Source of the DNA: a virus
DNA length: 32,960 nt
Direction: 5' to 3' (one strand)
IMG/VR virus record: IMGVR_UViG_3300028706_000779
Location: 1-32,960 of that record
The notes below the pieces were generated by a model. That model made no database searches. It had not been told where the DNA came from and worked only from the letters and a program-made list of their open reading frames with translations. Below are positions 6,664-30,189 of this stretch, piece by piece. Every line of letters begins with the position of its first letter. The first letter of the stretch is position 1. Both the position numbers and the translations under genes were made by a program.

Positions 6664-6679
6664 CTAGAGCTTAACCTTT

Positions 6680-6712
6680 GTAGCCCGTTAGCACGAAGTG
6701 CGGGCGGGCTAC
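6680..6712 (+). terminator. Hairpin after capsid gene (partial terminator?)
   Basis: GTAGCCCG (6680-6687) pairs perfectly with CGGGCTAC (6705-6712), and the loop carries a second small hairpin GCAC-GAA-GTGC (6691-6701). The T-run that follows is weak (TTTACT), so this may be a leaky terminator or an mRNA 3'-end protector rather than a strong stop. It sits 17 bases behind the capsid stop codon, where transcript abundance usually steps down. Confidence 0.65.
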
Positions 6713-6744
6713 TTTACTAATAGAATTCCCGGGAGGAACTAATT

Positions 6745-7338
6745 ATGAATATACAAGATATGACATCTAAACAGATAAGCGATAAGCTGGCCGAAAACGG
6801 TATTAAGATGCACTTTAATTCAAAAAGAGAAAAGCTTGAAGAAGCTTTAAATAACTTACCTATCACGGAGGGTGATAATATGGAAGCAGTAACAGAAGCA
6901 ACACAAGAAATACCAACAGCTGTATTAATTACAGCAGACCAACTAGATGACTTTAAATTCAATGGGGTTGAATTAGAAGGTCTACGTGAAGATAACACTA
7001 TGAAGTTGATCAGAGTTATCGTACGACCTAATGACCCACTTAAACTTGAGTCAACAGGTGAGATTTTTAGTTTTGGTAACAGTGTAGCTAACGGCGGTAA
7101 AGTAGTTAAAAAATACGTACCATTTAATAATGAAGAAGGTTGGCACGTTCCTAACATCATTTTTGAAAATATTAAAGCAGCTGAATGTCAAATCTTTAAA
7201 AAGGTTGTTCGTAATGGTCAAGAGACTATGGAACCTCAAAAGATTAAAGCATACAATGTTGAAGTACTAGATGACTTAACACAGGAAGAAGTTGACAAGA
7301 TTGCAGTAAGACAAAAAGCAACAAGTTCAGTAGGATAA
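6745..7338 (+). CDS. Virion protein with N-terminal HeH/SAP-like module; two starts
   Basis: A 197-aa protein. Residues 1-40 (MTSKQISDKLAENGIKMHF, then a charged helix) resemble the HeH/SAP/Rho-N helix-extended-loop-helix module that often binds nucleic acid. The remainder (46-197) is a mixed alpha/beta domain ending in the acidic segment VLDDLTQEEVDKIAV; I do not recognise its family. Two in-frame starts each have a strong ribosome site: GGGAGGA eight bases before ATG 6745, and GGAGGG (6867-6872) seven bases before ATG 6880 (Met46). The second would give a 152-aa form lacking exactly the HeH-like module. It lies after the capsid hairpin and four bases before the next gene. Likely a virion or head protein by position. 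Confidence 0.75.
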   Translation: MNIQDMTSKQISDKLAENGIKMHFNSKREKLEEALNNLPITEGDNMEAVTEATQEIPTAVLITADQLDDFKFNGVELEGLREDNTMKLIRVIVRPNDPLKLESTGEIFSFGNSVANGGKVVKKYVPFNNEEGWHVPNIIFENIKAAECQIFKKVVRNGQETMEPQKIKAYNVEVLDDLTQEEVDKIAVRQKATSSVG

Positions 7339-11912: not shown

Positions 11913-11933
11913 CAAATTTAAGGATTATTGCGT

Positions 11934-14900
11934 ATGAGTTACTTAGGTAATGAGTCTTTTGACGATATAGTTGCACGGAAACAAGCACAACTTTCAAGCG
12001 CAGCAAATGCTAAAAGAACACTTTTTGAAGACGCTGTATATAGCAAACAAGTAGCAATAACTCCAGATAGAGATTACCAAGGTCTCCAAAATAAACTTAA
12101 TGCTAATGACTCAACTGAATTATCTTTTAAACATAATTCATTATTCAATAAAAATGCAGATGCTGATTCCATCATGGGACAGAATGCTAAAGGTGAAGAC
12201 GTTGGTATACGTGCACTAGGTCTAGACACTTGGGAACACAGTTCTTATAAAGGCGATAAGAATAAAATTAGAGCTTCACAGCGTAAACATTATGCACGTC
12301 TATTTAATGTACCTGAAAATGAAGTAACTGTTGACCAAATTCATGCTATGGGGCGTAGAGCAGATAATCGCTTTAGAAATCTTCTAACAGAAGGCCAAGG
12401 TGAATACGACCAATCTTCAGGCACTTTCTCAAATATGCCAGGTAAACAATTTGAAGGTTTTGAAGACCAACTTTGGGCTCCTGAAAGCTTTAGAGATAAC
12501 GCACAATATAGTGGTGAAGTAACGTATGACCCACTTAGTAGGAAATATAAGACTGATAAACGAACTAAAGTAGATTCGTTTATAAACCCTAATACTGGCG
12601 TAGACCTCTATAAGGCAATGAACACGCCTGAGTTTAATACTAGGTGGTTTGCAAACACAGTAGAACAAAATGCTATACGTTCAGCTTATGAAGCTGAGCA
12701 TGGAACTGCATACAATACATTTAAAGCTCCTACTGCATCAAGAGACCATGAAGTAATGGGGTACACCCAACACGGTAGAGCAGCATTTGGTTTAAATGGT
12801 GAAGTTGTATCTGAAAAAGCCATAACATTACAAATGGATGGTAAGTGGGTTAATGTACCTACTATCTGGAAAGGTGAAAAGTATAGTGATGATGAAGTTG
12901 CTCAAATGCTTATCAATAATGAAGTATCTCCAACCAGTGAGCATAGTACTAAACAGGAAGCTATTGACGCAGCAAAGAAAAGAAGTGATGAAATCACAGT
13001 AACACCATTACCTCAGGTATTTAAAGAAAAGAAAAGTAAAATTATTAATAGATTTACTGCAGAAGAACTTGAGGTAATGTTTGCAAAAGATAGTTATTGG
13101 GAAGTTGTTACTAAGAGTTTAAGTGCTGGTGTTGATTCAATACAAGCGGCTGGTTATGGATTAGCTGCTTTAGCCGCTGATGTTACTAAAGATGCTAAGT
13201 GGATGCGTGCAATAGTCCCCCCATTCGCTATATGGACGCTAATACATGAGTACACGAGTGATGTAGATTTTGCTGATGCTATGTTAGAAGAATACCAAAC
13301 TAAAATACAAGAAGCCCACGAAAATGGTGCACAACTTCCTGCTTGGGATGCTGAGAACATGGATTGGACAAATCCTGACATGGTCTTTAGACAGATATTA
13401 GCGGGAGTAGGTGAGTTTATCCCATCAATAGTAGGTGGTGGTATAGCCGGTAAAATAGTATCTACAGGTGTTAAGCGTTTTCTAAAACACAAAATGAAGA
13501 AGTGGGGAGCAGATAAAGCAGTTAAAAGGAAAGCTTTACTTGCTGGAGAGATTACAGGTGCCACTGTCGGAAGTAATGCTTTCTACATGGGAATAGGTGG
13601 TGGTAGTGTATATGGTGATTTAGGCAGTGCTGGCTATAGAGGTAGAGATGCTCAAGTTGCAGCTATAGGTGGTGGTATTGTAATTGGTGCTTTAGATTCA
13701 ATTGTTCCTAGAAGTATTGCTAAACAATTAGGTTTGTCTAAGTCTGCTGTTCAACGCTTTAAAGGTGAATTAAAGAAAAAAGGTTTTGTAAATTCTGCAG
13801 GTAAAGTATTAACTGAAACTGCTAAAGGTGGTTTAGGTGAGGGTGTCACAGAAACTCTACAACAAGTTGTAGAAAACTCTGTAATTAACATGGTTAAACA
13901 TGGGGAATTACCACCATTTACCTCAGATGAAGCTTTTAGTGAGTATGTAGGTGTATTCATTAAAACAGTTTTAGGTGGTGGTGCTATTAAAGGAACCATA
14001 ACTACTGGTACTGAAGCTGTTAGTTTGTATAAAGGTGATAAAGGTGCTATACGTGAAGCAGCTGAGCAAATTGCAGCAGAAGCTGAAGATGCCCGTAATG
14101 AAGAATCCGGAGAACATAGTGTAGAGGCAGAAGCAGAACTTAAACTTTTAGTAAAAGAATTTTCTGCCCTAAATCTTGACATAGATGGGTTACCTGAAAA
14201 CTTTGATTCAATGAATAACCTGAACAAAGTAATTCATATTTCTAATGCTCTCCAGAAAGCCGATAATCAAGAGATTATTAACAATAGCGGCCGTAGTACC
14301 CAAGAAATAGAAAGTATCCAGGAATCACTAAATAATGTAGTTAACGCCTTACAGAACAGTTCTGATACTAACAGTGTAGCCGCAGTTGAAGCAGCTTTTG
14401 ATGCTGCTATTAAAAATGACCCAGCACGTAAAGATTATTATTTACAACAGAAAGAGCAACAGTTAGCTACTATTAAAGAGCTCAGTAAACTCAAGAAAAA
14501 TAAAGATAAGAAAAAAGCAATATCTCCAGCACTTCAAAAATTAATTGATGATGCTATTACTGTTTCAGTAGTAGTTGAAAAAGAAAATTCTGAGAATACT
14601 GCTAAAGATTCCACAGATAAAGATGCAACAGATAAAGACGCAACTTCTGAAGATGACAAAGTAGAACAGTATTCACATGAACAACGTTTAATAAATCTAA
14701 ATGAAGCTTTTGATGCAGCTGTTGAAGCTAACCCTAAAGAAGAAGCCCACATTAATAAGCTCAGAGCTTTAGAAGTTGCTAACCTTGAAGGGCAAACTAT
14801 ACTTAACCAAGAGATTGCACGTATTGGTAGTACTGGCCTTAAAGGTGACACAACAGGTAAAGGTAATAGTGAGTTTGTAGGACGCTTAAATAAAGCAGTT

Positions 14901-17900
14901 AGTTCTTTTAAAACAGGCGGTGTAGATTCACAATTACAAACAGAACAGTATGGTGCTGCTCTTCATGTTAAAGGTGAAAAAGATAAACTTAATCGAAAGG
15001 TTGAAAAAACTACTGATAGTAACCCTTCAAACAGAGAAGCTAATGAAGCAGCTGTTGTAGGTGAAAAAGAAAAAATACTTAAAAAAGAAAAAGAAGCTTC
15101 AAAATCTGCAGAAGAAACACAAGAAAAAGCAGATGAGAAAAGTACTGAAGTTGTTAGTGGCCATGTTGAAAAAATAATAAAACAAATTAATGCTCTAACT
15201 AAAAAAATTGAAGATAGTGGTATTAACCCTAAACATAAAAAACGCTTAGAAAATAAACGTAATAATCTAGGGTTACTTATTGATACCGTAGCTTCACAGA
15301 AGCGTACTGAAAAGTCTGTAAATGAAGTTACTAATATTGCAATACAAGATACTTTAGACAGTTTTGACTACCAACATGTTATTGTTGATATTGAAAATTT
15401 ATCTATTACAAAGTCTTCTGATAGAGATGCAATTGTTAAGTCCGCGTTAGATGCTATTGAAGTCCTTCGTGATAAAGATGTTGAGTATGCCGAAAAGATT
15501 AGAATAATCGCAGGAGTATTAGCTGCAAGAGAAAGATTAGTACAGAACCTCATATCAATTAAGAAACAGTTAAAACGTGTTACTGAAGAATCTCAAGTTA
15601 AAGACCTAGAAACTGAGTTAAATAGAACAAATGATTCAATCAAAAAAATGGAACCATTTGTTAAAGAAATTTCTGGAATGAAGTTTGAACAAGTAAATAA
15701 CACAAAAAATAAATTCTCAGATTTACTATATTCATTAAAAACTGAATCATTTAAAAACATTGACAGAGATGCATTAGATGACTCAGATAAGCCACTATAT
15801 GACTTAGTAGCTAAAATGGTGGCTAAGCAAGCCAGACGTGATAAAGCTGTTGGTAATAAAGATATTGGTCAAGTTAACCGTGAAATTTTATATGGTGATG
15901 AAGGTTACCAGGGGTATGAGGGGTATAAACAAGACGCAAAAGATGGCACAATTTCTATTAAAAACTTAACAAACTTTGTAAAAGGTTTACAAGCTAAGTT
16001 AGTAGCATTTAATAAAGCAGTAGCTAAGTCAAAGAAGCTTAATCAAGATGTCTGGGTAAATAAAGAAACATTAGAAATTATTACAGAAAGACCTTTACCT
16101 GAAGGACAGAAAACTGCCACATTAACAAAAGATGGTTATAAAGATTTTGACCGCGAAAATTTCTGGTTTATAAATGCTAAAAATAGTAATAAATTAATTA
16201 ACTTATTAAAGCTAGAGGTTGAACTCGGTGTAGCTACATTAAAGGCTTTAACTAAGTATAAAGACTCTACAAAAAACAAAGTTGTAATTACTGAAGAAAT
16301 TGAAGAACATAATAAATTAATTGCACAAATTAATAAGTTAGTTAATCCTCCTGAAGATACAGGTGATTTAAACAACTTAGGTAAGGGTGAGACTGTTAAA
16401 GAAGCTTTACAACCATTTGTAGATGCTGTCAATAAAGCAACTAAAAAGTTGAATTATGAAAGTAAACAAGTAGTTAAGTATATTAAAAAGCTTAAAGCTA
16501 ATGATAAAGAAGTATTTGAGACTGTTTACTTAAAAGAACTTAAAGCCAAAATAGCATTAATTGAAGCTAACATTAACTTATGGGAAGCTAAAGAAGTAGT
16601 AGGTAAAGTTACTTCTACACAAGCAAGCAAAGCTATTATTAAACTTAATAGTGATATTGTAAGTATCACAGCAGAGATTGATAAAGCTGTAAAAGATGCT
16701 AAAGCACGTAAAGACGACAAACGAACACTTACAGCCAAGCAACATTTCTTAAACGCCCAAGAACGCTTAAAAGGTAGCTTTATTAAAATTGTTAGTAAAG
16801 CTAAAGATAGTATATTTGTAAATGATATCTTCGGAGTTAAGGACGACACTAGATTGTCATTAGCTGTGTATGCACAAGATGAAGATAACGGTGACTTAAC
16901 AGCTGAAAGTATTAAAAGCGGTTTAATAGATTTAGGTATTACGGATAAAAAGTATATCCGTTATATTGTAAAGACCTTTGAACAATTTAAAGCTACTTAC
17001 ACAGACAATATTGTTGCAGATGTTGACGGTATACAGTCTGAAAAATATAATAAAGTAGGTGTATTTAACTATAGTGAGCCTTTAGGTATGCTATATGTTA
17101 AAGATGGTAAAAGTGTCAAATTACCAGACACTGTACTATTTGCTATGATGATGGGTTCATTAGAATGGTTGTCGATTAGTCAAGGTGAATCTGCATTTAT
17201 GGACTCACAGGCTATTGCTCAATACCTTAAAGGTGATAGAAAAGCTCATGTAACACCTGAAGAAATTTCTATTTTTGGAAATATGGGTATTACTTACGGA
17301 AATGGCTCAAGGTCACTAGGCCCAATTGTTTATAACTATCTAAACATGCGCAGTCTCGGAGCTAACTCAAAATTAAAGTTCTCTGAACTTATGAAAGACC
17401 CAACTAGTATTATGAAAGACTCTAGTATTGAGGAACGCCTAATAGTTGCTTTAGGTGAGATGTCATTAGAAATATTAGAACAAATGCCTGCAACAGTAAC
17501 AAAAGCAAGAACAACAAACTTTATATCAATTACTCGTACTGAATTTCCATCTGAACACTTTGGGGTTAACCCACTAGTTTCATGGAGGGAAACTGTTAAA
17601 GGTATAAGCCCTAGAGATATTGTAAAAATTCCAGCAGTACTAAGGAAAGCTGAAAAAGCTGTTGACACTGCTTTCTTGAAGTTATCTAAAGAAAAACAAA
17701 CTTGGGAAACTTATATTTCTCTGTGGGAAAAGTATTTTAACCCAACTAAAGGTAGTAAAGAGTTCATCGCAGCCAGGAAAAAAGAACTTGCTGTATTGAG
17801 AGCTGACGCAGAAAAACGTAATAGCAAGGGTCTTAGTAATATATTCATAAATGAAACAGAAGATAACTTAAGTTTAGCTCGAGTAGCCTCTAGTCTAATC

Positions 17901-20900
17901 AATGGTTATACATTACGTAATACTATTAAGTTACTACCAGAAGACCATAAAGCATTTGAGAATATCATTAAATTTATTAAAGAGGGTAAAGATAATGTAA
18001 AAACTACTATGGGTACTCAGACTATTTTAGATGATATTCTGGATGAACCATCTACTGAAATACAAGAGCGTGCAACAGGTAGTCCACATCTATTACCAAA
18101 ATTTGTAAGAAACTTAATTGAAAAGTTACAAAATGTAGAATGGCGAGGTAAAAAGGGAGAGCTTGGCTTATTCAAACTTCTTAATATTAAGAATAGACGT
18201 TTACTCGCTAAGATGAATGATGATGTAAACCCACACATTGAACATGTTGATGGTATTGAAGCTTCTAATGCGATTAAAGAAAAAGAGCTTGCTGCGGTAG
18301 ATGAGTACATTGCACTAGAGGGTTCAGAAGATGGTGAACACAAGCCTTTCTACTTTAGATTTAAAGCTCAAGTACAACATAGATTACGTATTGTCAGTAA
18401 TACTATTAATGGTCAAGCCAGTAAAATACATAGAGCGTTATTTTTACCCATTAAAGCAATTTCAACAATATCTCTAGACACTGCTAAAAAACAAAGTATT
18501 TCTAGAATAGTATTTAAGATAGCTGTAGCTCAAGCATTTGGTTATAGCGTAGACAAAAAACCTTTAACTGAAATCTTAGATGCCTTTGATAAATACGTTG
18601 AAATCTCGAAGGATTTGGTAGAAGCAGTATCACGTGGTGATATAACGGAAAAAGAATTTAATGCTAAATTAACAGCATTTATTAAAGATAATAAAGATAA
18701 TGATGTAGCACCTAGTATGCACATACTAGAGGCTATTATTGCGTTGACAGAGTATGACCCTGATGGTGTCTTTGACACACGTATAGGCTTAGAAATTGAT
18801 GGTATCACTAATGGTTATGCTATTTCACTTTTACAATTTTTATCATTAAGTGAAAAAGAGCTTAAAAGTTTTAAAGAAATTTATGGTGAAAATACACCAG
18901 AGTTTAAAGCTGCAATTGTTGATGAACTTGTTTCATCACTAAAACGTGTTGGTATCAATGTTGATAAGTCTGAAACATATGATATGTTTTTACAAGCTGG
19001 TGACCTTGACGTTTATCAAGTGCTATCTATGCGTATTGTAGAGTCTTTCAATGACCCTGAATACATAGAAAAGATTAACAAAAATAACAAGATAAAGTTA
19101 AAGCAAGAGCAATTAGACGCTTTAGAAGGTGTGCAAGGAACACTGTTTGACAAGGCAACACAAAAACTAGAAAAATTAGCAAGAGATTTAGCTAAAGCCC
19201 CTGTAATGACTAGTGTGTATGGTGCAAGCATCTTTAAGATTATCAATAATATTGCTGCGGATATTACAGATAATGTATACACAGACTTTGCTGATTTCCA
19301 GCGTAGATACAATGCTACTAAAGAAGGTTCAGCAGAACAATCCACTATTTTGAACGAGGTTGCAGACTACTCAAACAACTTAGCAGCACTGTTAAACTTC
19401 AAACAAGTAGGTGTAGTTAAGAAAGCAGTTAAAGGTAAGAGGGCCAAGAAACAAAAAGCAATTAGTATTATCAAAGCGCTTAAAGCGGGTGAGCTTGAAC
19501 AACATGTCTTACCACGTAAGACAATTGAAACATTAGAGTTTACAGTTGTACGTATTTATACCCCTGCAATGACTTCCACAATGGATAAGCTAATTGGTGG
19601 CTTACGCGAAAGCTCCAGCGTTGTAGTTAAAGCTAATGAGTATCAGTTCATGTTATTTAGACGTAAGCTTGAACAAGCTAAAGAATACTATCTAAAAACT
19701 AACAACTTACCACCTGAAAGTAAAGTACCACAAGATGTTATCGAAGTATTAGTTAAACGTTTAGCTATGGAATACTTACCTTCGTACTACGGCCCTAAGT
19801 CTAGTTCAACACCAATTCCATTGATAAAGCGTGGTAAAGAAGATGATAATGCAGTTACTATTAAATTTAAAAGTAAGCGTGTTACTAAAAAGAAAAAGTT
19901 AGGTAAAAGGACTACTAGACAAGATAGTAAAACACCTAAGATAGGTAGTAGAGCTACACCAGGTTCAAGTAATACATTTGAAAGAATGGGTGTTGGTGCA
20001 GCATTAGGTCAGATTATAAATATTGATTCAGCTGTATTAGGAGAAGTTCTTGAGGTATTCCCAAATGCTTTACCTATCTTTGATGCGTACTTTGGTACGG
20101 TTAATGACATGGTTAGTGTGTCTAAAACATATGGTAGTAGTTTTGGACGTATCGGTAATACTCATAGCATTTTAGCTGGTACATTAAAGCGTCTACATAA
20201 ATACGTACAAGATGACAGTAAAACTGTAACAATTGATGATGCTATAGATATTGATGCACCATATCTTAAATTAACGCAAGAAGACATTGACAAGACTAAC
20301 GAGGAATATGCAGAAAGTTCTTTTGAAGCTAACGAGTTACGTAAACAACTTGAAAAAGCAACAGGTAATTCAAATGAAGAAGCTCGCATAACAATACAAT
20401 TATCTGAATTAGGAATATCTCAAATAATTGGTGAGTTAAATACACGTATTGACACTGTTAAAGCGCACAAGAATTTACTTAAAAATGCAGGTTATTCTTT
20501 AGAAGATGCTAACGTTGAGCAAATGCCTATTTCGTCTTTAAAGAATAAGACACAGAAGCCTAAAACTAAAACATCTAGTAATGACACTAACAAAAACTCA
20601 GATATTCCAAATATTCAGGGAGAATTACCTGGCTTTGAAACAGCTGAAGGTAAACCTACTAAACTTAGTAAAACACTGAAGAAATCTGAATTACAAAAAC
20701 TTGCAAAAGCAAGAGATATTGATACAAGTAATATGACAGTAGCTGACTTACGTACAGCTATTAAACGTTTTGATGCAGGTAAGAAAGTATTCCCTAAGTT
20801 AGTTGAGCCTAAAGCCCCTAGTCTAGAATCTATACAACCTGTTCTTAGAATGTTTATGGGCAGAATTCACCCAGAATCTGCGATAGCTAGTGATTTTAGA

Positions 20901-23900
20901 CGTATAGGTATTACATCTAAAACTGTACCCGGCTTTTATTCTAAAAACATTAAGCTACAATCAGGTATTGATGGAATACCTATGAGTGAAATGCAGGCGG
21001 ATTTACTACCTCTAGGTATTTCTCCAGTAGACGAGCAAGGTGGTAGTAATCCAGATTTGTATGTAGATATTGATTGGATAATGGAACAAATTGAAGAAGA
21101 ATTCTTTAATAGAGTTTTTGATGGAGATAATGAATTTTTAAATCAACAATACAACCAAGAGTTTCAAGACTACCAACAAGAACTTGCACAACAGCAAGCA
21201 GAGTTAGAAGCAGAAGAAGATGCAGCAGCTAACACACAAGGCGACTTTATAGGTTTACCTGAAGCTACTAATGATAAAGATATCATCAAAAACATTGAAG
21301 CTAAAATACAGGAAGAAGACTTCACTGAAATACTGACCTGTAATGGTGCTAGTTGTACTATTAATTCCAAGATAATCACAGGCATACTAGATGACCTAGG
21401 CATCAGTAGTTTCGTAGTCTATGTTAGTTTCATGCAAGATACTACAGATGGTGGCACTAAGTGGGGAGACCATATATACACAATTGCTAATATAAATAAC
21501 AGACTATATGTGATTGATGCTCCTCAGAATGAGTTCATGGTGTATGACATTAAAAATGGCACAATTAAAATAAAGAAAGGTGTTGACAGGTCTAAGGTGA
21601 AACCAAGAGTTACAGCTTTAAGTGACCTTTCCACTAGGTACTCATATAATATATCCTCTGAGGGTTTCCTAAAGGTACCTGAAGATTTTAAAGAAGCTGC
21701 AAAAAACACACCGCTAAATCAAAAGAATGTTGTGGATTCATACCTTCTTGGTATAGAAGGTCTTAGTGCTTTCGAAGATGTGCAGGAACAAATAGAAAAA
21801 GATGGAATTACTGCTGAAGATATTATAGCAAACCCTGATAAGGTGGTAGACGCACTTAAAGAAAGTTACTCTGCGAATACCCATAGAGCCCCATTCGTTA
21901 TTAAAAGGGACCTCAAGAAAATAGAAGGCCTTAGAGTAAGGGGTAAGTTATCAAACACTACTTCAGTGGTTAATACAGAAGGCGACTTTATAGGTGACAG
22001 TACAGAGTACCAGTACGATTCAATGTTTAAGGGTATTGAAAAAGACCCGAGTACTTACAACATCATTAAGCAAAAACTTAAAGAGTTGTACCCAGAAATT
22101 AAATTAAAAGAGGTACAAACAGTTATTGATGGTTTTGGACGTGAAGTATTAGGTAAAGCTCTTGGTAGTATTATTGAAGTTAGTTCTAAAGGTAAGTTAG
22201 ATACTGTACCGCACGAGTATGCTCATGTATACATCAATGTTCTTGAAACAACTGATTTCATGGATAAGTTATTAAAACAGGTAGAAAAGGAAACTGGTTT
22301 AGATAGAACAGACGCTAAAGAATACTTAGCTCGTCATATGGGTGAGAATTTTACTAAACAAATTAAAAAGTCAAAATTAAGTATAAAACTTAGACATTTG
22401 ATTAATAGAGCAAAACATAAAATAATATCAGCAATGATTGCGCTAAGCTACACACTGGCTATAAAAGTTTATGGTGAAGAAGCTGGTAGTAATAAAGTTA
22501 AAGCAATTTTAGGCGCCTACTATAAACGTCAAAAGAAAAAAGTAGTACCTTTAAAGACTAATATTAAAAAAGCAAGTATCAGGTTCTACACTGGAGCTAA
22601 CAAAGATGCTATTAGATTTACACCTAAAACAGGCTATACCAAGGTTTCAATGGAGGAAACTCTAAAGAATGAGCCAATGGCTGTAACCATCTTAGGACGT
22701 GTTTTGGACACATTTAAGACAGCTACTTTAACTGGTAGTATTGCCCTTGCTGAGCAAGGTGATGTATTTAGACATGGTATTAGCAGTTTGCATGATATGG
22801 ATGTCAGAGTACATTCTTCAGAATTTAATAACATTGAAGAAAGTGTTTTAGATATTAGCCCAAATGCTGTACTAATTTATGACATACCTACCAAAACAGG
22901 CCGTACGATTAAATCATTCATTATTCCACCTGATGGTCGAAAAATTGTAGATATCAAACGTGATATTAGAAGAGTTGTTAGTTATAAAATTATTGATGTT
23001 GATACAGGCAAAGTTGTTGGTGTATACAAAGCTGCTGTTGATAGTAGAAAACAAATTATCTCTGAAAAAACCAGAGGCGAGTCAGCAATTATGCTTGATT
23101 TAATGGAAAGTGATAAAACAGCAGATTCTATTAATTTCTTTAGCACTGTAATGCAACGAAATATACCACTAGCTTTAGCTAAGTCAATTTTTAAAGCTAA
23201 ACAGGAAATTATTACAGGTGGTATGGCAAGGGATAAAGATATTATTGACTATACCTTGTTTGCACAAGACCCTATAACAGAAGTGACAGACCCAGAACTT
23301 TTTGTTGAGAAAGATAACACAGAAGAAACAAGCACCCAACAAGAAGACACAACAGATAGTAATATCTTAAAATCTATTGCACGTGAAGTTACAGGTAAAG
23401 TCAAACACATATATACAACACATAAATTACGTGAAAAACTGCAAAGTGTTTTTGATATGCTCGGGGAAGTCACTGATGACTTAATGTATATGTCAGAGGC
23501 GGATAAGGATACCCAAGTAGGGCACTTAGCACGTGTTATGACCGATATTATAGGTAAAGCAGGTCATGACCTAGATAGAGCATCTGTGACGATTAATGAA
23601 GTAACCTTTAAGACGGACGGTAATATTGACACTAACACTAATGCTGTAAATGTTAATGTTAATACTACATCACCATTAACGTATGCTGGACAGAGTGCGC
23701 AAGAAGTTTATGTACATGAGTTAATCCACGCAGTAACTAGAAGTGCTTTATTAGGTAATTCAAATTTTCAACATGAAATTAGAAAATTACGCAGAGAGGT
23801 TAAAGACACTTTTGAATTAAAAGCGAGACCTTATGAAGTATTTTTAAATACTGATGAAAATGGTAATGTTATATATTTGACTGATAAAGCATCAGAAATT

Positions 23901-26900
23901 GCAGACGCTAAAGAGCAATATAACTATGTGTTTAAAGATGGTAAAAATAGTGCTGAACCACATGCTGTATTAGATGAGTTTTTAGCTTATGCGCTAACTA
24001 ATAAGTTTTTAGTTAAAGAGCTTAGCAAGATGCCATCTAAACAGTCACCACTATGGAGCACTAATCCTAAAGATACTCCAGTTGAAAAAATAGTTAAATT
24101 GTTAGCCAATTTAGTTAATAGATTGACTACAATCCTAAACAGAAAAGATAGACCTAAAAATATTGAAGAACAAATATTTGCATTAACTTATGATGTTGTA
24201 GCGATAAGTGAGAAGCGTAAATCGTATCTACAAGTTGCATTAACTAAGTTAAAAATAGGTGAACACTTCTACCGTAGTAACAAAATTGTTAGTGACTTCT
24301 TTAAAACGATTGTTAAAGAAGGTGTTGAAGTAGGTGGTAAAAGATACATTGCAATGGTTGATAAGATTACTAAAGATGGTAAAGTAAACTCATTTATTGC
24401 TAATTTGCTTTACGATACTAAGCTTGCTGCAATGTATGTTGCGTATGGTAGCTTTATAGAGAAACACCCAAGACTACAATTTCATTTGGGAGATAAATAC
24501 CGTAAGTTTTCCCCAAGCATTGTTAAAAACATGTTCTCATTAAAAAGTGATTTCTTCGGGAATAAAGATAATGTATTTACACGTTTAACGTTTGAATCAA
24601 ATGCTAAGATTGACCAGACTAGAAAGGCGTATAAAAATAGTATTATTTCAAATTTACTTGATAGCTTTAAAACTGAAGGTTTACTAACAAAAGAAAATAA
24701 AGAAGCTATTACACGAGGATTGTTTAAAACTAGCTTTTCAGACTTAATAGCACTAAAAGCTTTTTCTTTACAAGACGCATTAGCTTTCTTCAGTGATGAT
24801 AAAGCTTTATCTACTGAAATTGCCAAGTACGCTGGTTTATTGGGTATGCCTAGTAATCAGCATTACACTACTCAAACACACGCATTAGTTGACTTTATGT
24901 TAACGGGTAATAATGATAATATTAATCAGTTTAAAAATCCTGAATTAATCTACATTAAAGACCCTAGTAGAAACTCGAATGATAAAGTTGACCAGATTGT
25001 TGTAGATAATCTAAAGATTTATGTCACGTTACTTGCAATACAAGGCACAACGGATACTACTAAAAAAGCTGTTGCAGATATTGCAAAACAAGAGTTTGCA
25101 GCGGATACTTTAGATAATGGTATTATCAATGTAGTTAATATGCATACAGCATTCAAACATCGTTCTTTAGTTGAAGGTTTTGATAATACAGCTGCTCAAA
25201 TGACACAAGGTTATATTGCTACTGTGGTTGATTCTGGTATATCATTTGAATTTGCACCAACAGATAAAGAAACTATTAGTAGACTACGCACTGATGGATT
25301 TACACTTATTTCTAAACTTAAGCCTATAGCAGGATTACAGACTACTGCTTATGGTATCTACATTAGAAAAAATGACCCAGATTTACCAAGAGTTAAAGGC
25401 TCTTTATCAGTAACAGCAAATCATTCAAGTGGTATGTCGTTAATGGAAATTATTCGTAGGGACGTTAAGCCAGTATTTGTTCAAGAAGTTTTTCAAAACT
25501 TTATGGCTGAACAAAAAAAATACATGAATAGTTCTAATCATGAAAATACAATGATGCCTATCATTGATGCTTGGGGTAATATCACGGATTACTCTATACA
25601 CATGAAGCATAACATGGTTGAGAAACACTTAAATCAAAATCTTCAATTTGATGAGGTGTTGGCAACAATGTTCTCAAATTTAGAAGACAAGTTAGCTTCT
25701 AAAGATATGAATATTAAAGTTATCACAGAACTTCATAAATATTCAAAGAAACATTACAAAGATAACCCTAAACGCTTTATCAATATATTAGGTAATAAAA
25801 ATAGAGATGAGTACTTTAATGTATTACCTGCACATACCCGTTATGAAATAACTAGACGTGCAACATATGATAAAAAGACTAAGAGTAAACAGTTCTTTGT
25901 AGATATGTCACTTTTAGATGAAGTTTTTGGTTACCAATTACCATCAGTATCTACATTGAGTGTATTTAAGAAGCACCCAGTAGCTGAACGTAGAGCTAAG
26001 GTGTTTGAAAAAGTTGTTAGAGAAGTTGTTGCATTTGTTAAAGAAACTATTATTATTAGAATACCTATTGTTCCAGCTGTGAATATTATAAGTAACTATG
26101 TATCATCTTTCTTACATGGTGTACCTATCGGATATATAAATAAAACTTGGTCAGAAGGTGTACGTGAATTACACATGTATCAAAATGATGCAGAGTCATT
26201 GCGTTTAATTGACCTAAAGATTTTAGGAAATCCTACACATAATCAAGTAGCTCAATTAGAACGTAAGCGTGCTAAATTAATATTCAGAATGAATAATAAT
26301 AAAGTAGCTAAGTTTATGGATATGGGGTTATTTAACTCAATTACAGAAGATATCAATCAAAATGAGTTCACGTATAGACGTAAACTGCAAGGTAAGATTA
26401 GTAACTCTAAAGTATTAAGTAAATTTAAGGGTGCCCCATCAGAGGTTGTAAATCAACTATACATGGGCGAAAAAACATCAACATTTAAGTTTTTAATGCA
26501 CCTTACTCAGATTAGTGATTTTGTAGCGAGATATACTTTATATAAGTATGACACTGAAGTGCTTAAACTTGACGAAGAAACTGCTTATAAGAGCATGGTT
26601 GATATGTTCGTTAGCTATGACCGTCCATTAAACAAATACATACAATATGGTAATGACCATGGTTTCTTATTTTTTATTAAATACTGGATTCGTATACAAC
26701 GACCAGCACTTAAGTTAGTTAAAGATAAGCCAGTAAATGTAGCATTGTTACTTTTAGGAAATCAAATGATAGGAATTGAAAGTATATTCAACTCTAGTGT
26801 GTTAACGGGTAACTTATTCCCTATGGTAGGTGATGTAGAAATGTTTGCTAATGAATTAGTGATACCATCTGGATTAGAGATAATGTCAGGTGCTAGCCTT

Positions 26901-26903
26901 TAG
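11934..26903 (+). CDS. Giant virion RNA polymerase, polyvalent (N4 gp50-like, 4989 aa)
   Basis: N4-type vRNAP, packaged in the head and ejected to transcribe early genes. Start: ATG 11934 has AAGGA nine bases upstream; a TTG at 11928 is too close. Polymerase motifs: TxxGR-equivalent Arg2150 (QHRLRIVSN); motif A Asp2289 (EIDGITNG); motif B Arg2417, Lys2421, Tyr2429 (RDLAKAPVMTSVYG), spaced as T7 R627/K631/Y639; motif C Asp2717 (IFDAYFGT, Phe replacing the usual His). Motif spacing follows N4, not T7. Other parts: SNase-like segment (90-220), phage-type domain (270-330), Gly-rich membrane-active stretch (400-690), coiled coils (950-1650), SAP-like module (2910-2946), papain/transglutaminase-like domain (C3141, H3180, D3195), zincin HEYAH (3427-3431), nucleotidyltransferase-like domain (3580-3780), zincin HELIH (3928-3932, E4015), conserved C-terminus. 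It is about 1,500 aa longer than N4 vRNAP. The polymerase is certain; accessory calls are motif-based. Confidence 0.93.
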   Translation: MSYLGNESFDDIVARKQAQLSSAANAKRTLFEDAVYSKQVAITPDRDYQGLQNKLNANDSTELSFKHNSLFNKNADADSIMGQNAKGEDVGIRALGLDTWEHSSYKGDKNKIRASQRKHYARLFNVPENEVTVDQIHAMGRRADNRFRNLLTEGQGEYDQSSGTFSNMPGKQFEGFEDQLWAPESFRDNAQYSGEVTYDPLSRKYKTDKRTKVDSFINPNTGVDLYKAMNTPEFNTRWFANTVEQNAIRSAYEAEHGTAYNTFKAPTASRDHEVMGYTQHGRAAFGLNGEVVSEKAITLQMDGKWVNVPTIWKGEKYSDDEVAQMLINNEVSPTSEHSTKQEAIDAAKKRSDEITVTPLPQVFKEKKSKIINRFTAEELEVMFAKDSYWEVVTKSLSAGVDSIQAAGYGLAALAADVTKDAKWMRAIVPPFAIWTLIHEYTSDVDFADAMLEEYQTKIQEAHENGAQLPAWDAENMDWTNPDMVFRQILAGVGEFIPSIVGGGIAGKIVSTGVKRFLKHKMKKWGADKAVKRKALLAGEITGATVGSNAFYMGIGGGSVYGDLGSAGYRGRDAQVAAIGGGIVIGALDSIVPRSIAKQLGLSKSAVQRFKGELKKKGFVNSAGKVLTETAKGGLGEGVTETLQQVVENSVINMVKHGELPPFTSDEAFSEYVGVFIKTVLGGGAIKGTITTGTEAVSLYKGDKGAIREAAEQIAAEAEDARNEESGEHSVEAEAELKLLVKEFSALNLDIDGLPENFDSMNNLNKVIHISNALQKADNQEIINNSGRSTQEIESIQESLNNVVNALQNSSDTNSVAAVEAAFDAAIKNDPARKDYYLQQKEQQLATIKELSKLKKNKDKKKAISPALQKLIDDAITVSVVVEKENSENTAKDSTDKDATDKDATSEDDKVEQYSHEQRLINLNEAFDAAVEANPKEEAHINKLRALEVANLEGQTILNQEIARIGSTGLKGDTTGKGNSEFVGRLNKAVSSFKTGGVDSQLQTEQYGAALHVKGEKDKLNRKVEKTTDSNPSNREANEAAVVGEKEKILKKEKEASKSAEETQEKADEKSTEVVSGHVEKIIKQINALTKKIEDSGINPKHKKRLENKRNNLGLLIDTVASQKRTEKSVNEVTNIAIQDTLDSFDYQHVIVDIENLSITKSSDRDAIVKSALDAIEVLRDKDVEYAEKIRIIAGVLAARERLVQNLISIKKQLKRVTEESQVKDLETELNRTNDSIKKMEPFVKEISGMKFEQVNNTKNKFSDLLYSLKTESFKNIDRDALDDSDKPLYDLVAKMVAKQARRDKAVGNKDIGQVNREILYGDEGYQGYEGYKQDAKDGTISIKNLTNFVKGLQAKLVAFNKAVAKSKKLNQDVWVNKETLEIITERPLPEGQKTATLTKDGYKDFDRENFWFINAKNSNKLINLLKLEVELGVATLKALTKYKDSTKNKVVITEEIEEHNKLIAQINKLVNPPEDTGDLNNLGKGETVKEALQPFVDAVNKATKKLNYESKQVVKYIKKLKANDKEVFETVYLKELKAKIALIEANINLWEAKEVVGKVTSTQASKAIIKLNSDIVSITAEIDKAVKDAKARKDDKRTLTAKQHFLNAQERLKGSFIKIVSKAKDSIFVNDIFGVKDDTRLSLAVYAQDEDNGDLTAESIKSGLIDLGITDKKYIRYIVKTFEQFKATYTDNIVADVDGIQSEKYNKVGVFNYSEPLGMLYVKDGKSVKLPDTVLFAMMMGSLEWLSISQGESAFMDSQAIAQYLKGDRKAHVTPEEISIFGNMGITYGNGSRSLGPIVYNYLNMRSLGANSKLKFSELMKDPTSIMKDSSIEERLIVALGEMSLEILEQMPATVTKARTTNFISITRTEFPSEHFGVNPLVSWRETVKGISPRDIVKIPAVLRKAEKAVDTAFLKLSKEKQTWETYISLWEKYFNPTKGSKEFIAARKKELAVLRADAEKRNSKGLSNIFINETEDNLSLARVASSLINGYTLRNTIKLLPEDHKAFENIIKFIKEGKDNVKTTMGTQTILDDILDEPSTEIQERATGSPHLLPKFVRNLIEKLQNVEWRGKKGELGLFKLLNIKNRRLLAKMNDDVNPHIEHVDGIEASNAIKEKELAAVDEYIALEGSEDGEHKPFYFRFKAQVQHRLRIVSNTINGQASKIHRALFLPIKAISTISLDTAKKQSISRIVFKIAVAQAFGYSVDKKPLTEILDAFDKYVEISKDLVEAVSRGDITEKEFNAKLTAFIKDNKDNDVAPSMHILEAIIALTEYDPDGVFDTRIGLEIDGITNGYAISLLQFLSLSEKELKSFKEIYGENTPEFKAAIVDELVSSLKRVGINVDKSETYDMFLQAGDLDVYQVLSMRIVESFNDPEYIEKINKNNKIKLKQEQLDALEGVQGTLFDKATQKLEKLARDLAKAPVMTSVYGASIFKIINNIAADITDNVYTDFADFQRRYNATKEGSAEQSTILNEVADYSNNLAALLNFKQVGVVKKAVKGKRAKKQKAISIIKALKAGELEQHVLPRKTIETLEFTVVRIYTPAMTSTMDKLIGGLRESSSVVVKANEYQFMLFRRKLEQAKEYYLKTNNLPPESKVPQDVIEVLVKRLAMEYLPSYYGPKSSSTPIPLIKRGKEDDNAVTIKFKSKRVTKKKKLGKRTTRQDSKTPKIGSRATPGSSNTFERMGVGAALGQIINIDSAVLGEVLEVFPNALPIFDAYFGTVNDMVSVSKTYGSSFGRIGNTHSILAGTLKRLHKYVQDDSKTVTIDDAIDIDAPYLKLTQEDIDKTNEEYAESSFEANELRKQLEKATGNSNEEARITIQLSELGISQIIGELNTRIDTVKAHKNLLKNAGYSLEDANVEQMPISSLKNKTQKPKTKTSSNDTNKNSDIPNIQGELPGFETAEGKPTKLSKTLKKSELQKLAKARDIDTSNMTVADLRTAIKRFDAGKKVFPKLVEPKAPSLESIQPVLRMFMGRIHPESAIASDFRRIGITSKTVPGFYSKNIKLQSGIDGIPMSEMQADLLPLGISPVDEQGGSNPDLYVDIDWIMEQIEEEFFNRVFDGDNEFLNQQYNQEFQDYQQELAQQQAELEAEEDAAANTQGDFIGLPEATNDKDIIKNIEAKIQEEDFTEILTCNGASCTINSKIITGILDDLGISSFVVYVSFMQDTTDGGTKWGDHIYTIANINNRLYVIDAPQNEFMVYDIKNGTIKIKKGVDRSKVKPRVTALSDLSTRYSYNISSEGFLKVPEDFKEAAKNTPLNQKNVVDSYLLGIEGLSAFEDVQEQIEKDGITAEDIIANPDKVVDALKESYSANTHRAPFVIKRDLKKIEGLRVRGKLSNTTSVVNTEGDFIGDSTEYQYDSMFKGIEKDPSTYNIIKQKLKELYPEIKLKEVQTVIDGFGREVLGKALGSIIEVSSKGKLDTVPHEYAHVYINVLETTDFMDKLLKQVEKETGLDRTDAKEYLARHMGENFTKQIKKSKLSIKLRHLINRAKHKIISAMIALSYTLAIKVYGEEAGSNKVKAILGAYYKRQKKKVVPLKTNIKKASIRFYTGANKDAIRFTPKTGYTKVSMEETLKNEPMAVTILGRVLDTFKTATLTGSIALAEQGDVFRHGISSLHDMDVRVHSSEFNNIEESVLDISPNAVLIYDIPTKTGRTIKSFIIPPDGRKIVDIKRDIRRVVSYKIIDVDTGKVVGVYKAAVDSRKQIISEKTRGESAIMLDLMESDKTADSINFFSTVMQRNIPLALAKSIFKAKQEIITGGMARDKDIIDYTLFAQDPITEVTDPELFVEKDNTEETSTQQEDTTDSNILKSIAREVTGKVKHIYTTHKLREKLQSVFDMLGEVTDDLMYMSEADKDTQVGHLARVMTDIIGKAGHDLDRASVTINEVTFKTDGNIDTNTNAVNVNVNTTSPLTYAGQSAQEVYVHELIHAVTRSALLGNSNFQHEIRKLRREVKDTFELKARPYEVFLNTDENGNVIYLTDKASEIADAKEQYNYVFKDGKNSAEPHAVLDEFLAYALTNKFLVKELSKMPSKQSPLWSTNPKDTPVEKIVKLLANLVNRLTTILNRKDRPKNIEEQIFALTYDVVAISEKRKSYLQVALTKLKIGEHFYRSNKIVSDFFKTIVKEGVEVGGKRYIAMVDKITKDGKVNSFIANLLYDTKLAAMYVAYGSFIEKHPRLQFHLGDKYRKFSPSIVKNMFSLKSDFFGNKDNVFTRLTFESNAKIDQTRKAYKNSIISNLLDSFKTEGLLTKENKEAITRGLFKTSFSDLIALKAFSLQDALAFFSDDKALSTEIAKYAGLLGMPSNQHYTTQTHALVDFMLTGNNDNINQFKNPELIYIKDPSRNSNDKVDQIVVDNLKIYVTLLAIQGTTDTTKKAVADIAKQEFAADTLDNGIINVVNMHTAFKHRSLVEGFDNTAAQMTQGYIATVVDSGISFEFAPTDKETISRLRTDGFTLISKLKPIAGLQTTAYGIYIRKNDPDLPRVKGSLSVTANHSSGMSLMEIIRRDVKPVFVQEVFQNFMAEQKKYMNSSNHENTMMPIIDAWGNITDYSIHMKHNMVEKHLNQNLQFDEVLATMFSNLEDKLASKDMNIKVITELHKYSKKHYKDNPKRFINILGNKNRDEYFNVLPAHTRYEITRRATYDKKTKSKQFFVDMSLLDEVFGYQLPSVSTLSVFKKHPVAERRAKVFEKVVREVVAFVKETIIIRIPIVPAVNIISNYVSSFLHGVPIGYINKTWSEGVRELHMYQNDAESLRLIDLKILGNPTHNQVAQLERKRAKLIFRMNNNKVAKFMDMGLFNSITEDINQNEFTYRRKLQGKISNSKVLSKFKGAPSEVVNQLYMGEKTSTFKFLMHLTQISDFVARYTLYKYDTEVLKLDEETAYKSMVDMFVSYDRPLNKYIQYGNDHGFLFFIKYWIRIQRPALKLVKDKPVNVALLLLGNQMIGIESIFNSSVLTGNLFPMVGDVEMFANELVIPSGLEIMSGASL
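21231..21254 (+). repeat. Direct repeat copy 1 (NTQGDFIG)
   Basis: This 24-base segment inside the vRNAP gene recurs 741 bases downstream at 21972-21995 with two mismatches, including a 17-base identical run. Both copies are in frame and encode NT(Q/E)GDFIG (residues 3100-3107 and 3347-3354). They bracket the Cys-His-Asp domain exactly. Confidence 0.9.
21972..21995 (+). repeat. Direct repeat copy 2 (NTEGDFIG)
   Basis: Second copy of the repeat at 21231-21254, placed between the Cys-His-Asp domain and the first HExxH domain of the vRNAP. The 247-codon unit between copy starts could be removed or gained in frame by recombination. The peptide could also be a processing site. Confidence 0.9.
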
Positions 26904-27305: not shown

Positions 27306-28010
27306 TTAGTTAAACAACTTCTTACCAGCCGGCTTAGCAGCAGTAGCGGTAGAACCACCTGCAACTTCTTTAGCACGGTTAATAACTTTACCAGTATTGC
27401 GCTCAGCCCATTTAACTGACATGACAGCTTCTTCAATACCTTTAGTTTTTTCAGCAACTGTTAGACCTGAGTCTGCGAAGTAGAAATCTTTAATCTCATT
27501 TTCTTCTTTAGTTTCTGCAGTATCAACCCAAGTACCCGTACCATCATCAGCACGTTTGTTAACTACTTGCTTAAAGATAGCAGCTTTAACTTTTTTACCA
27601 AGTAGTTGTACAGCTACATCTTTAGCAGTAGGTACTTCTTTCTTCTTAGTGAAGTCATACACATTAACCATCTTTTCTTCAGTAGCGTCATCTACTGCAC
27701 CAATGTCAGTTTCAGTTGCTGTAACAGCTAAGTTATTACTTACACTGTATCCTGGAAGATAATGCTTCTCACCTTTAGCGTTCATGTAAGTTACTTCACC
27801 TTTACGGTTAGTTACATAAAATGTCTGTTTAAGTTTTTTACCTGCATCATTTAATAGTGTTAAATTTAATGAACGTGCTCCACCTTTAGATTTGTCAAAG
27901 TAGGCCATGTCTACTACACAGTCATAAATACCTGTATCCCATAGAAATGAACCACCACCTGTTGATAACTCTTCGACTTTAACGTCTTCTTGCATACTTA
28001 AATTACTCAT
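27306..28010 (-). CDS. ssb: Single-stranded DNA-binding protein (N4 gp45-like)
   Basis: A 234-aa protein with the layout of the N4-type SSB family: a Gly-rich N-terminal strand (TGGGSFLWDTGIYDCVVDMA), the Lys/Gly turn SKGGARSLNLTLL, the GEKHYLPGYS segment (about residues 80-87), a KKKEVPTAKDV helix, the LLGKKVKAAIFKQVVNK strand (about 137-153) and the ENEIKDFYF segment. These are family hallmarks; it is not an E. coli-type OB SSB by motif. The C-terminus is basic/Ala-rich and ends in LFN. N4 gp45 acts in replication and recombination and also activates late sigma70 promoters. The ribosome site is AAGGAT. The leader can form an H-type pseudoknot (28034-28075), pointing to translational control. 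Confidence 0.85.
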   Translation of the reverse strand: MSNLSMQEDVKVEELSTGGGSFLWDTGIYDCVVDMAYFDKSKGGARSLNLTLLNDAGKKLKQTFYVTNRKGEVTYMNAKGEKHYLPGYSVSNNLAVTATETDIGAVDDATEEKMVNVYDFTKKKEVPTAKDVAVQLLGKKVKAAIFKQVVNKRADDGTGTWVDTAETKEENEIKDFYFADSGLTVAEKTKGIEEAVMSVKWAERNTGKVINRAKEVAGGSTATAAKPAGKKLFN

Positions 28011-28033
28011 AATTTAATATCCTTTTTTGTATT

Positions 28034-28075
28034 GTTACTAAAAATAAAAATCCATACAGGTAGTAACGTCCTGTA
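28034..28075 (-). promoter_or_regulatory. H-type pseudoknot in the ssb leader
   Basis: In the ssb mRNA (minus strand), TACAGG (28075-28070) pairs with CCTGTA (28060-28055), and GTTACTA (28067-28061) in that loop pairs with TAGTAAC (28040-28034) downstream. Stem 1 is 6 bp, stem 2 is 7 bp, both perfect; the connecting loops are 2, 0 and 14 bases, ideal geometry for a coaxial H-type pseudoknot. It ends 23 bases before ATG, and the rest of the leader is unstructured A/U-rich sequence with the ribosome site. T4 gene 32, also an SSB, uses this arrangement for autoregulation. Confidence 0.7.
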
Positions 28076-28096
28076 AAGATGTAAATGTTTGTGGAA

Positions 28097-28431: not shown

Positions 28432-28555
28432 AAGGTCATCACTCTATCATACTAATTTGGGGACATTTTCTCTAGTGTCCAGCTAGTCAACTTTGCTTTT
28501 ATGCTCCTAAGAGTTAAAAGTAAAATACAAATAAATTTTGTGTTAAACTTGCGCT

Positions 28556-28614
28556 GTGCAGATATACTCTCCTCAAGAGTAAACCCTCCCAAGATGTTTA
28601 TAAAATATCTGCAC
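28556..28614 (-). ncRNA. Candidate structured RNA closed by a 10-bp stem
   Basis: GTGCAGATAT (28556-28565) and ATATCTGCAC (28605-28614) form a perfect 10-bp stem. Inside, TACTCT-loop-AGAGTA (28565-28581) forms a 6-bp hairpin sharing one base with the outer stem. In the minus-strand RNA the interior shows TTGGGAGGG and a TGAGG loop. It begins seven bases after the stop of the 63-aa gene. It lacks tRNA features and a T-run; it may be an mRNA 3' element or a small RNA. Confidence 0.45.
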
Positions 28615-28620
28615 ACTTCA

Positions 28621-28812
28621 TTAAAATATAAAGCCTGAGCTATTTAAGCCTTGGACTTTATATTGTTTCATTAGGTCTACCGTTTTACGAGCTAAGCATC
28701 TGGTTAAATAGTGTTTATAGGACGCATCGTAATTTGCACCACCTTTAGCAGATCTATCTGCATAGTCTTCAGCTAGGGCTGTGCATAATTCTTCTTTTGT
28801 TAATTCTGACAT
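28621..28812 (-). CDS. Hypothetical small protein downstream of RusA (63 aa)
   Basis: A 63-aa protein, MSELTKEELCTALAEDYADR and onward, all-helical and charged, with an AKGGANYDASYKHYLTRCLAR-like middle (AKGGANYDAS, then YKHYLTRCLAR). An upstream in-frame ATG at 28857 exists but has no ribosome site and would overlap RusA by 41 bases. The chosen ATG at 28812 has AGGA eight bases before it, inside the end of RusA, and starts five bases after the RusA stop codon. Function unknown; co-expression with RusA is likely. Confidence 0.7.
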   Translation of the reverse strand: MSELTKEELCTALAEDYADRSAKGGANYDASYKHYLTRCLARKTVDLMKQYKVQGLNSSGFIF

Positions 28813-29763: not shown

Positions 29764-30189
29764 TTATAAATTTTTATTAATTAACGCCCAGTGACCTAGT
29801 GGGTCAAAGAACATACTGTTCTGTACCCTTTTTGTTATTTTAGCCTTTAAAGGACTATCAAATATCCGCTTAGGTTGTAGTACATACGCAGCTTTACTAC
29901 TAGAACATAGTCTATTACTAGCACATGATAGAGATACTCCTAATTCAGAAACTAATTCTTTTACTGTCCACGTTGTGCCATCATCTAAGTGGTATATTTT
30001 GTATTTACCTTTGTTAGGTGACAGATGATTTTTGTTTTTAAAAAGCTTATCCACATTTGCTGACTTAGCTAATCTATATCTAGCAGCTGATGTAGATATA
30101 CCTACCTTGTCTGCTAGCTGCATAGCTGTTATAGAAGAACCATCTGATAGTGTGTATTGTGTGACTACTCTATTAGTATTAGCTGCCAT
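29764..30189 (-). CDS. DNA-binding protein with duplicated HTH units
   Basis: A 141-aa protein made of two related units: residues about 12-50 (YTLSDGSSITAMQLADKVGI then STSAARYRLAKS) and about 65-103 (YHLDDGTTWTVKELVSELGV then SLSCASNRLCSS). Each has the pattern Y-x-L-x-DG-x-x-x-T-x-x-x-L-x-x-x-hGhS-x-S-x-A-x-x-RL, a helix-turn-helix of the homeodomain-like kind seen in small phage DNA-binding proteins. The C-terminal 40 residues are basic. The ribosome site AGGGGA precedes ATG. It borders the structured 279-base gap and could bind operators there; it may regulate middle genes or assist a nuclease or replication protein. Confidence 0.75.
   Translation of the reverse strand: MAANTNRVVTQYTLSDGSSITAMQLADKVGISTSAARYRLAKSANVDKLFKNKNHLSPNKGKYKIYHLDDGTTWTVKELVSELGVSLSCASNRLCSSSKAAYVLQPKRIFDSPLKAKITKRVQNSMFFDPLGHWALINKNL

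Follow-up and report, generated by a model that had tools for sequence, protein, structure and literature searches.

The ssb leader of an N4-like phage was found to carry an H-type pseudoknot directly upstream of the ribosome site, and comparisons of sequence among relatives indicate that this pseudoknot is a real, conserved and cis-acting RNA element under selection, the function of which we infer from its setting. The pseudoknot itself, its covariation and its association with both ssb and a promoter-like hairpin were observed directly in seven leaders. The best single mechanism for the element would, by analogy, be T4-like SSB autoregulation, with the hairpin as a promoter, the RNA acting at translation and SSB as the ligand, all three being assignments that we infer.

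The window, i.e., the whole stretch of DNA that was analysed, is a 32,960-base virus record assigned to an N4-like phage. No Pfam family was found in its SSB, which belongs to PHROG 743; the AlphaFold2 model of this protein (pLDDT 85.7) has PrgE of plasmid pCF10 as its closest solved structure (E 1.7e-5), and the protein is predicted to resemble OB-fold SSBs. Further along the window, an ORF on the minus strand (29764-30189) matches a Ren-like exclusion protein family (PHROG 16568, E 3.3e-43). The features of the ssb region, in the direction of transcription, are:

28111 to 28097, minus strand: hairpin GGGTTC-TCC-GAACCC (template-strand C-GGA-G triloop), candidate virion-RNA-polymerase-type promoter
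28080 to 28077, minus strand: 5' side (AUCU) of an optional outer extension of stem S1, 4 bp with 28053-28050 across a U-U mismatch (nested fold)
28075 to 28070, minus strand: S1 5' arm UACAGG (pattern scan, shuffles, covariation)
28069 to 28068, minus strand: loop L1 (AC), 2 nt (pattern scan)
28067 to 28061, minus strand: stem S2 5' arm GUUACUA (pattern scan, shuffles, S2 cells all paired)
between the S2 5' arm and the S1 3' arm, minus strand: loop L2, 0 nt
28060 to 28055, minus strand: S1 3' arm CCUGUA (pattern scan, shuffles, covariation)
28054 to 28041, minus strand: loop L3, 14 nt, U-rich, UGGAUUUUUAUUUU (pattern scan)
28040 to 28034, minus strand: S2 3' arm UAGUAAC (pattern scan, shuffles, covariation)
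28033 to 28011, minus strand: A/U-rich unstructured ribosome site, 23 nt, with the SD AAGGA at ~28024-28020 (sequence)
28010 to 27306, minus strand: ssb gene, N4-type SSB of 234 aa (PHROG 743, E 2.9e-71)

The original prediction, a pseudoknot with stems of 6 and 7 perfect base pairs and loops of 2, 0 and 14 nt, proved exact at 28075-28034 on the minus strand, and so did its placement directly before the ssb ribosome site, with the ATG at 28010, 23 nt past the pseudoknot end. A scan of both strands of the 33-kb window for this geometry (6+7 bp, L1 of 1-3, L2 of 0-1 and L3 of 3-20 nt, Watson-Crick pairs only) found a single perfect pseudoknot, and comparison of the leader with 1000 dinucleotide shuffles gave p ~0.002. 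When S1 is extended outward, L3 shrinks to ~9 nt; S1 helices longer than 6 bp were also found in three relatives (L140, L198 and L210). The nested minimum was calculated at -9.3 kcal/mol and the two pseudoknot helices at -10.5 and -9.5 kcal/mol, loop penalties excluded. Since energy by itself does not settle the choice of fold, it is covariation that decides.

A DNA search of phage isolates with the window gave no match. In the nearest relative (L001, SSB 97% identical) both stems are kept, an A-U pair of S1 having become G-U and L1 differing by a single change, but this comparison tests nothing, because the 2 of 42 pseudoknot sites that changed are close to the rate at fourfold sites of ssb (7/106). 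More distant leaders allowed a test of chance complementarity in A/U-rich sequence, which could account for the window and L001 taken by themselves. Scanning of 91 loci with SSB homologues revealed the same leader plan in L077 (SSB 38% identical), and an upstream-hairpin pattern and an SSB alignment added L140, L198, L145/L353 and L345; both L077 and L345 were located from the SSB sequence, without use of the leader. The seven distinct leaders are those of the window, L001, L345, L140, L198, L210 (representing the L077 group) and L353, with SSBs 32-100% identical to that of the window. All seven have the same order of hairpin, pseudoknot and SD, with a C-TCC-G hairpin 80-99 nt ahead of the ATG. 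The more distant ones (SSBs 32-63% identical) each have an H-type pseudoknot directly upstream of the SD, and the spacing from pseudoknot to AUG, 23 nt in the window, is 13-23 nt in the relatives. Dinucleotide shuffles gave p values of 0.002 for the window, 0.001 for L001, L140, L198 and L210, 0.013 for L353 and 0.039 for L345.

The compensatory changes that had been proposed for both stems were indeed present among these relatives. In the structural alignment, every S2 cell is paired (42 of 42), both partners having changed in a compensatory way at 3 of 6 pairs (4, 5 and 6), and S1 is paired in 51 of 56 cells even though every one of its pairs has a two-sided change somewhere. A GUU/AAC is kept in S2 across the ssb leaders; S1 keeps no sequence. 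L140 and L198, the SSBs of which are 86% identical, have diverged by double changes at two pairs of S1 and one pair of S2 and by two further changes to or from wobble pairs, with no broken pairs in the compared core. The leader arms were aligned by hand, because MAFFT aligned the leaders too poorly for automatic pair counts, and the hand alignment was for this reason backed by the shuffles; for S1 the claim rests on the shuffle test rather than on an arm-swap test, since the arms were chosen to pair. Independent leaders that each beat their shuffles and also covary refute chance complementarity, which keeps only the slimmest probability. Among IMG/VR stretches that combine the hairpin with S2-like arms, 12 of 13 lie before an N4-like ssb. 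The only unrelated match of the strict pattern (L184) has an imperfect hairpin and was attributed to chance, and a pattern of CTCCG, GTTGTC and GACAAC was rejected as too loose for viral contigs.

These repeats could also act in DNA, as protein sites or promoter cruciforms, with RNA folding being incidental; in favour of this, the adjoining hairpin very probably works in DNA as part of a promoter. However, the helices of ssb and of a second gene with such a leader (gene X, see below) contain 13 G-U cells on the coding strand compared with 1 A-C cell, which indicates conservation of coding-strand RNA and not of a DNA repeat. S1 shows no sequence conservation, and in all relatives the interleaved geometry stops a short way ahead of the SD. 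A DNA-level role for the pseudoknot repeats is thus very improbable.

The hairpin at 28111-28097 is the only C-TNC-G hairpin with at least 5 bp in the window (0.5 expected in shuffles), and its stem covaries among relatives while the loop is kept. In N4, ssb is a middle gene and the same scan found no such hairpin before it; here, by comparison, one such hairpin precedes ssb. N4 has three early promoters (PMC4496689, PMC3715699), P1-P3, which are read by the virion RNA polymerase, have a 5-8 bp stem with a template-strand C-GNA-G triloop and lie directly before early genes (PMC4496689, PMC12633501). The window hairpin shares the short stem, the 3-nt loop and the template C-GNA-G with its central purine. 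The stem contact -8G of N4 is not kept, the window template having T at this position, which varies in the clade; the hairpin is therefore filed as N4-promoter-like only, and recognition of the stem by the enzyme of this clade must differ from that in N4. As a positive control, the same scan of N4 (1-12 kb and 25-36 kb) gave three sites in all, one each ahead of gp1, gp2 and gp15, and the first of these is the P1 sequence given in PMC12633501. Since N4's three early-gene hairpins were recovered in this way, ssb probably has its own virion-RNA-polymerase-type promoter, with a transcript start near 28093 as suggested by N4 numbering (11 nt from the loop centre; PMC4496689). The genomes of relatives contain several such hairpins each, many of them shortly ahead of early genes, with stems that are varied yet complementary. 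The window also contains an ORF on the plus strand (11928-26903) of a size suited to a virion RNA polymerase; at 4991 codons it is much longer than the 3500 codons of the N4 enzyme.

Several further observations concern the surroundings of the hairpin. A small ORF (28296-28117) lies directly upstream of it, and an unrelated ORF occupies the matching place in L001 (~2767-2893), so that the boundary of this swap falls at the ssb promoter hairpin. A non-coding stretch at ~28456-28640, which includes the inverted repeat GGACACTAGAGAAAATGTCC, is nearly identical to L001 while its flanks are ~80% identical. In one isolate, Vibrio phage VCO139, an N4-promoter-like hairpin (CCAAAC-TTC-GTTTGG) lies ~54 nt before ssb, with no pseudoknot. 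Among the ssb leaders of isolates and N4, a pseudoknot was absent or not significant, because ssb there closely follows sak4. In N4 and most Schitoviridae, ssb directly follows sak4 and has no leader of this kind, so the family as a whole does not depend on the control.

Autoregulation of an SSB through an mRNA pseudoknot is the textbook case from T4-like phages. In the gene 32 operator of T4 and RB69, a pseudoknot precedes a ribosome site that is itself unstructured (PMC535899); the window has the same combination of a phage SSB gene, an H-type pseudoknot and an unstructured A/U-rich ribosome site downstream. The likeness to T4 gene 32 that was first proposed holds to this extent; the T4 pseudoknot is followed by an unstructured segment longer than 40 nt with UUAAA/UAAA repeats, and no such segment was found here. 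The 3' segment is 23 nt with a single UUAAA in the window and 13-23 nt in relatives, few of which have a UUAAA, and the T4 pseudoknot lies ~40 nt from the AUG compared with 13-23 nt here. The leader further differs from that of T4 gene 32 in that the SSB is N4-type, a promoter-like hairpin lies upstream and similar pseudoknots precede other genes too.

A second comparison is offered by the DUF2815 RNA (Rfam RF03084). It takes its name from the DUF2815 proteins, phage SSBs of the Enc34/T7 gp2.5 type (PMC5686142). Judged from its sequence, the consensus of this RNA (aGGG...CCCu) looks readable as an H-type pseudoknot of apparently the same plan. In end-to-end fits its model stem coincides with S2 and the model ends at the AUG, preceded by AAAAAGG, but the scores (14.6 bits for the window, 20.6 for L140) are below the gathering cut-off of 41.2, the sequences are unrelated, and the match is partly due to the A-rich SD and AUG, which score elsewhere too. 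The SSB downstream is of PHROG 743, with no Pfam family, and not of the DUF2815 family. No true RF03084 members were found in 245 genomes of one class or in the phages searched; the best sub-threshold match among the N4-like contigs searched (G013:C1:3062-3121) scored 25.3 bits. The STAXI motif, with pseudoknots near genes for SSB and other DNA-handling proteins, has tandem repeats and UUCG loops (PMC2864571); the window resembles it in having a pseudoknot near an SSB gene, but this pseudoknot is single and no Rfam match to STAXI was found in the window at the gathering threshold. Rfam matches to preQ1-II and others were at chance level. By the features tested, the ssb-leader element has a plan like that of the T4 gene 32 operator, yet is outside that family, RF03084 and STAXI, and no paper describing it was found in a literature search.

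Feedback repression by SSB is favoured because the gene codes for an SSB and the pseudoknot lies next to the SD, and because T4 provides a precedent and the DUF2815 RNA an apparent parallel. In the proposed mechanism, ssb would be transcribed from its own virion-RNA-polymerase-type hairpin promoter, starting ~18 nt ahead of the H-type pseudoknot, which ends 23 nt before the AUG. SSB in excess over the available single-stranded DNA would then bind the pseudoknot and the adjoining A/U-rich ribosome site, and the bound SSB would block translation initiation, as gp32 does in T4. With the T4-type UUAAA repeats and a long 3' segment both missing, which speaks against a T4-like mechanism, this combination of an own hairpin promoter with a feedback operator is put forward tentatively, its probability falling a little short of even.

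Other genes of the clade also have such leaders. A genome-wide scan of six clade genomes found 14 pseudoknots directly upstream of an SD and ATG, compared with ~1.8 expected; they include those of ssb (four), gene X (four) and an operon of a 53-aa ORF and a winged-helix gene; for two of the 14, a nested hairpin ahead of a late gene is the better reading. The genes concerned besides ssb are:

L422:3364-3828, L425:7716-8180, L416:14560-14964 and L421:14091-14510: gene X, leader pseudoknot with S2 CUACC/GGUAG
30992 to 30837, minus strand: 53-aa ORF (PHROG 28126), first in an operon with the winged-helix gene

Gene X is an early gene of 134-154 aa and unknown family that adjoins a single-chain phage RNA polymerase gene. 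In its leader, each of the seven S1 pairs that were compared shows covariation. Neither a PHROG match at a usable E-value nor a convincing PDB fold (AlphaFold2 pLDDT 75) was found for gene X, and it is a guess that it is the analogue of N4 gp2. The leader of the 53-aa ORF (31058-30993, minus strand) has an H-type pseudoknot at 31058-31013 with S1 GAGUC/GACUC and S2 GGUAGUUUUUA/UAAAAGCUACC; in relatives, S1 is kept around AGUC/GACU and S2 varies with compensation. Separately, the leader (6671-6744, plus strand) of a late gene at 6745-7338 is structured, with GTAGCCCG...CGGGCTAC around GCACGAAGTGC, and is conserved in L418, L419 and L424.

The element is therefore not exclusive to ssb, and the main rival to an SSB operator is a general leader module, in which H-type pseudoknots 5' of ribosome sites would stabilise early mRNAs or aid translation. 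The excess of such pseudoknots across ssb, gene X and the 53-aa/winged-helix operon argues for this, as do the conserved letters, which differ from gene to gene. However, most other promoter-hairpin leaders in the genomes of the ssb relatives have no such structure, and the GUU/AAC kept in the S2 of ssb would be superfluous if the role were purely mechanical; a general module is accordingly somewhat unlikely. Alternatively, the pseudoknots could be operators through which some other regulator, either an RNA-binding protein of phage or host or a small ligand, coordinates the timing of several early genes. The presence of such leaders on several units of the same genomes would fit with this, but the three leader families share no sequence and no Rfam riboswitch match above threshold was found, which leaves it decidedly unlikely. 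For feedback by SSB, other pseudoknot leaders with other conserved letters imply that a single site recognised by SSB through its sequence would not explain everything. It is an unlikely but conceivable extension that, in this uncultivated N4-like clade, SSB or another phage protein reads the shape of the pseudoknot and not its sequence, post-transcriptionally, at the leaders of ssb, gene X and the winged-helix operon.

The hairpin suggests that ssb can have its own early-type promoter, in contrast to N4. N4 SSB is also an activator of late promoters, and because of this the SSB dose could time late genes; the proposed role of the pseudoknot in setting the late switch is, by analogy, speculation. 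If a circuit that reads pseudoknot shape does exist, middle and late expression would be linked to how much single-stranded DNA is available, and at least three unrelated phage SSB families (gp32, DUF2815 and N4-type) would have evolved pseudoknot leaders. With a covariation-backed pseudoknot before an N4-type SSB gene and an apparent third in the DUF2815 RNA, the repeated adoption of such leaders by phage SSBs is now testable.
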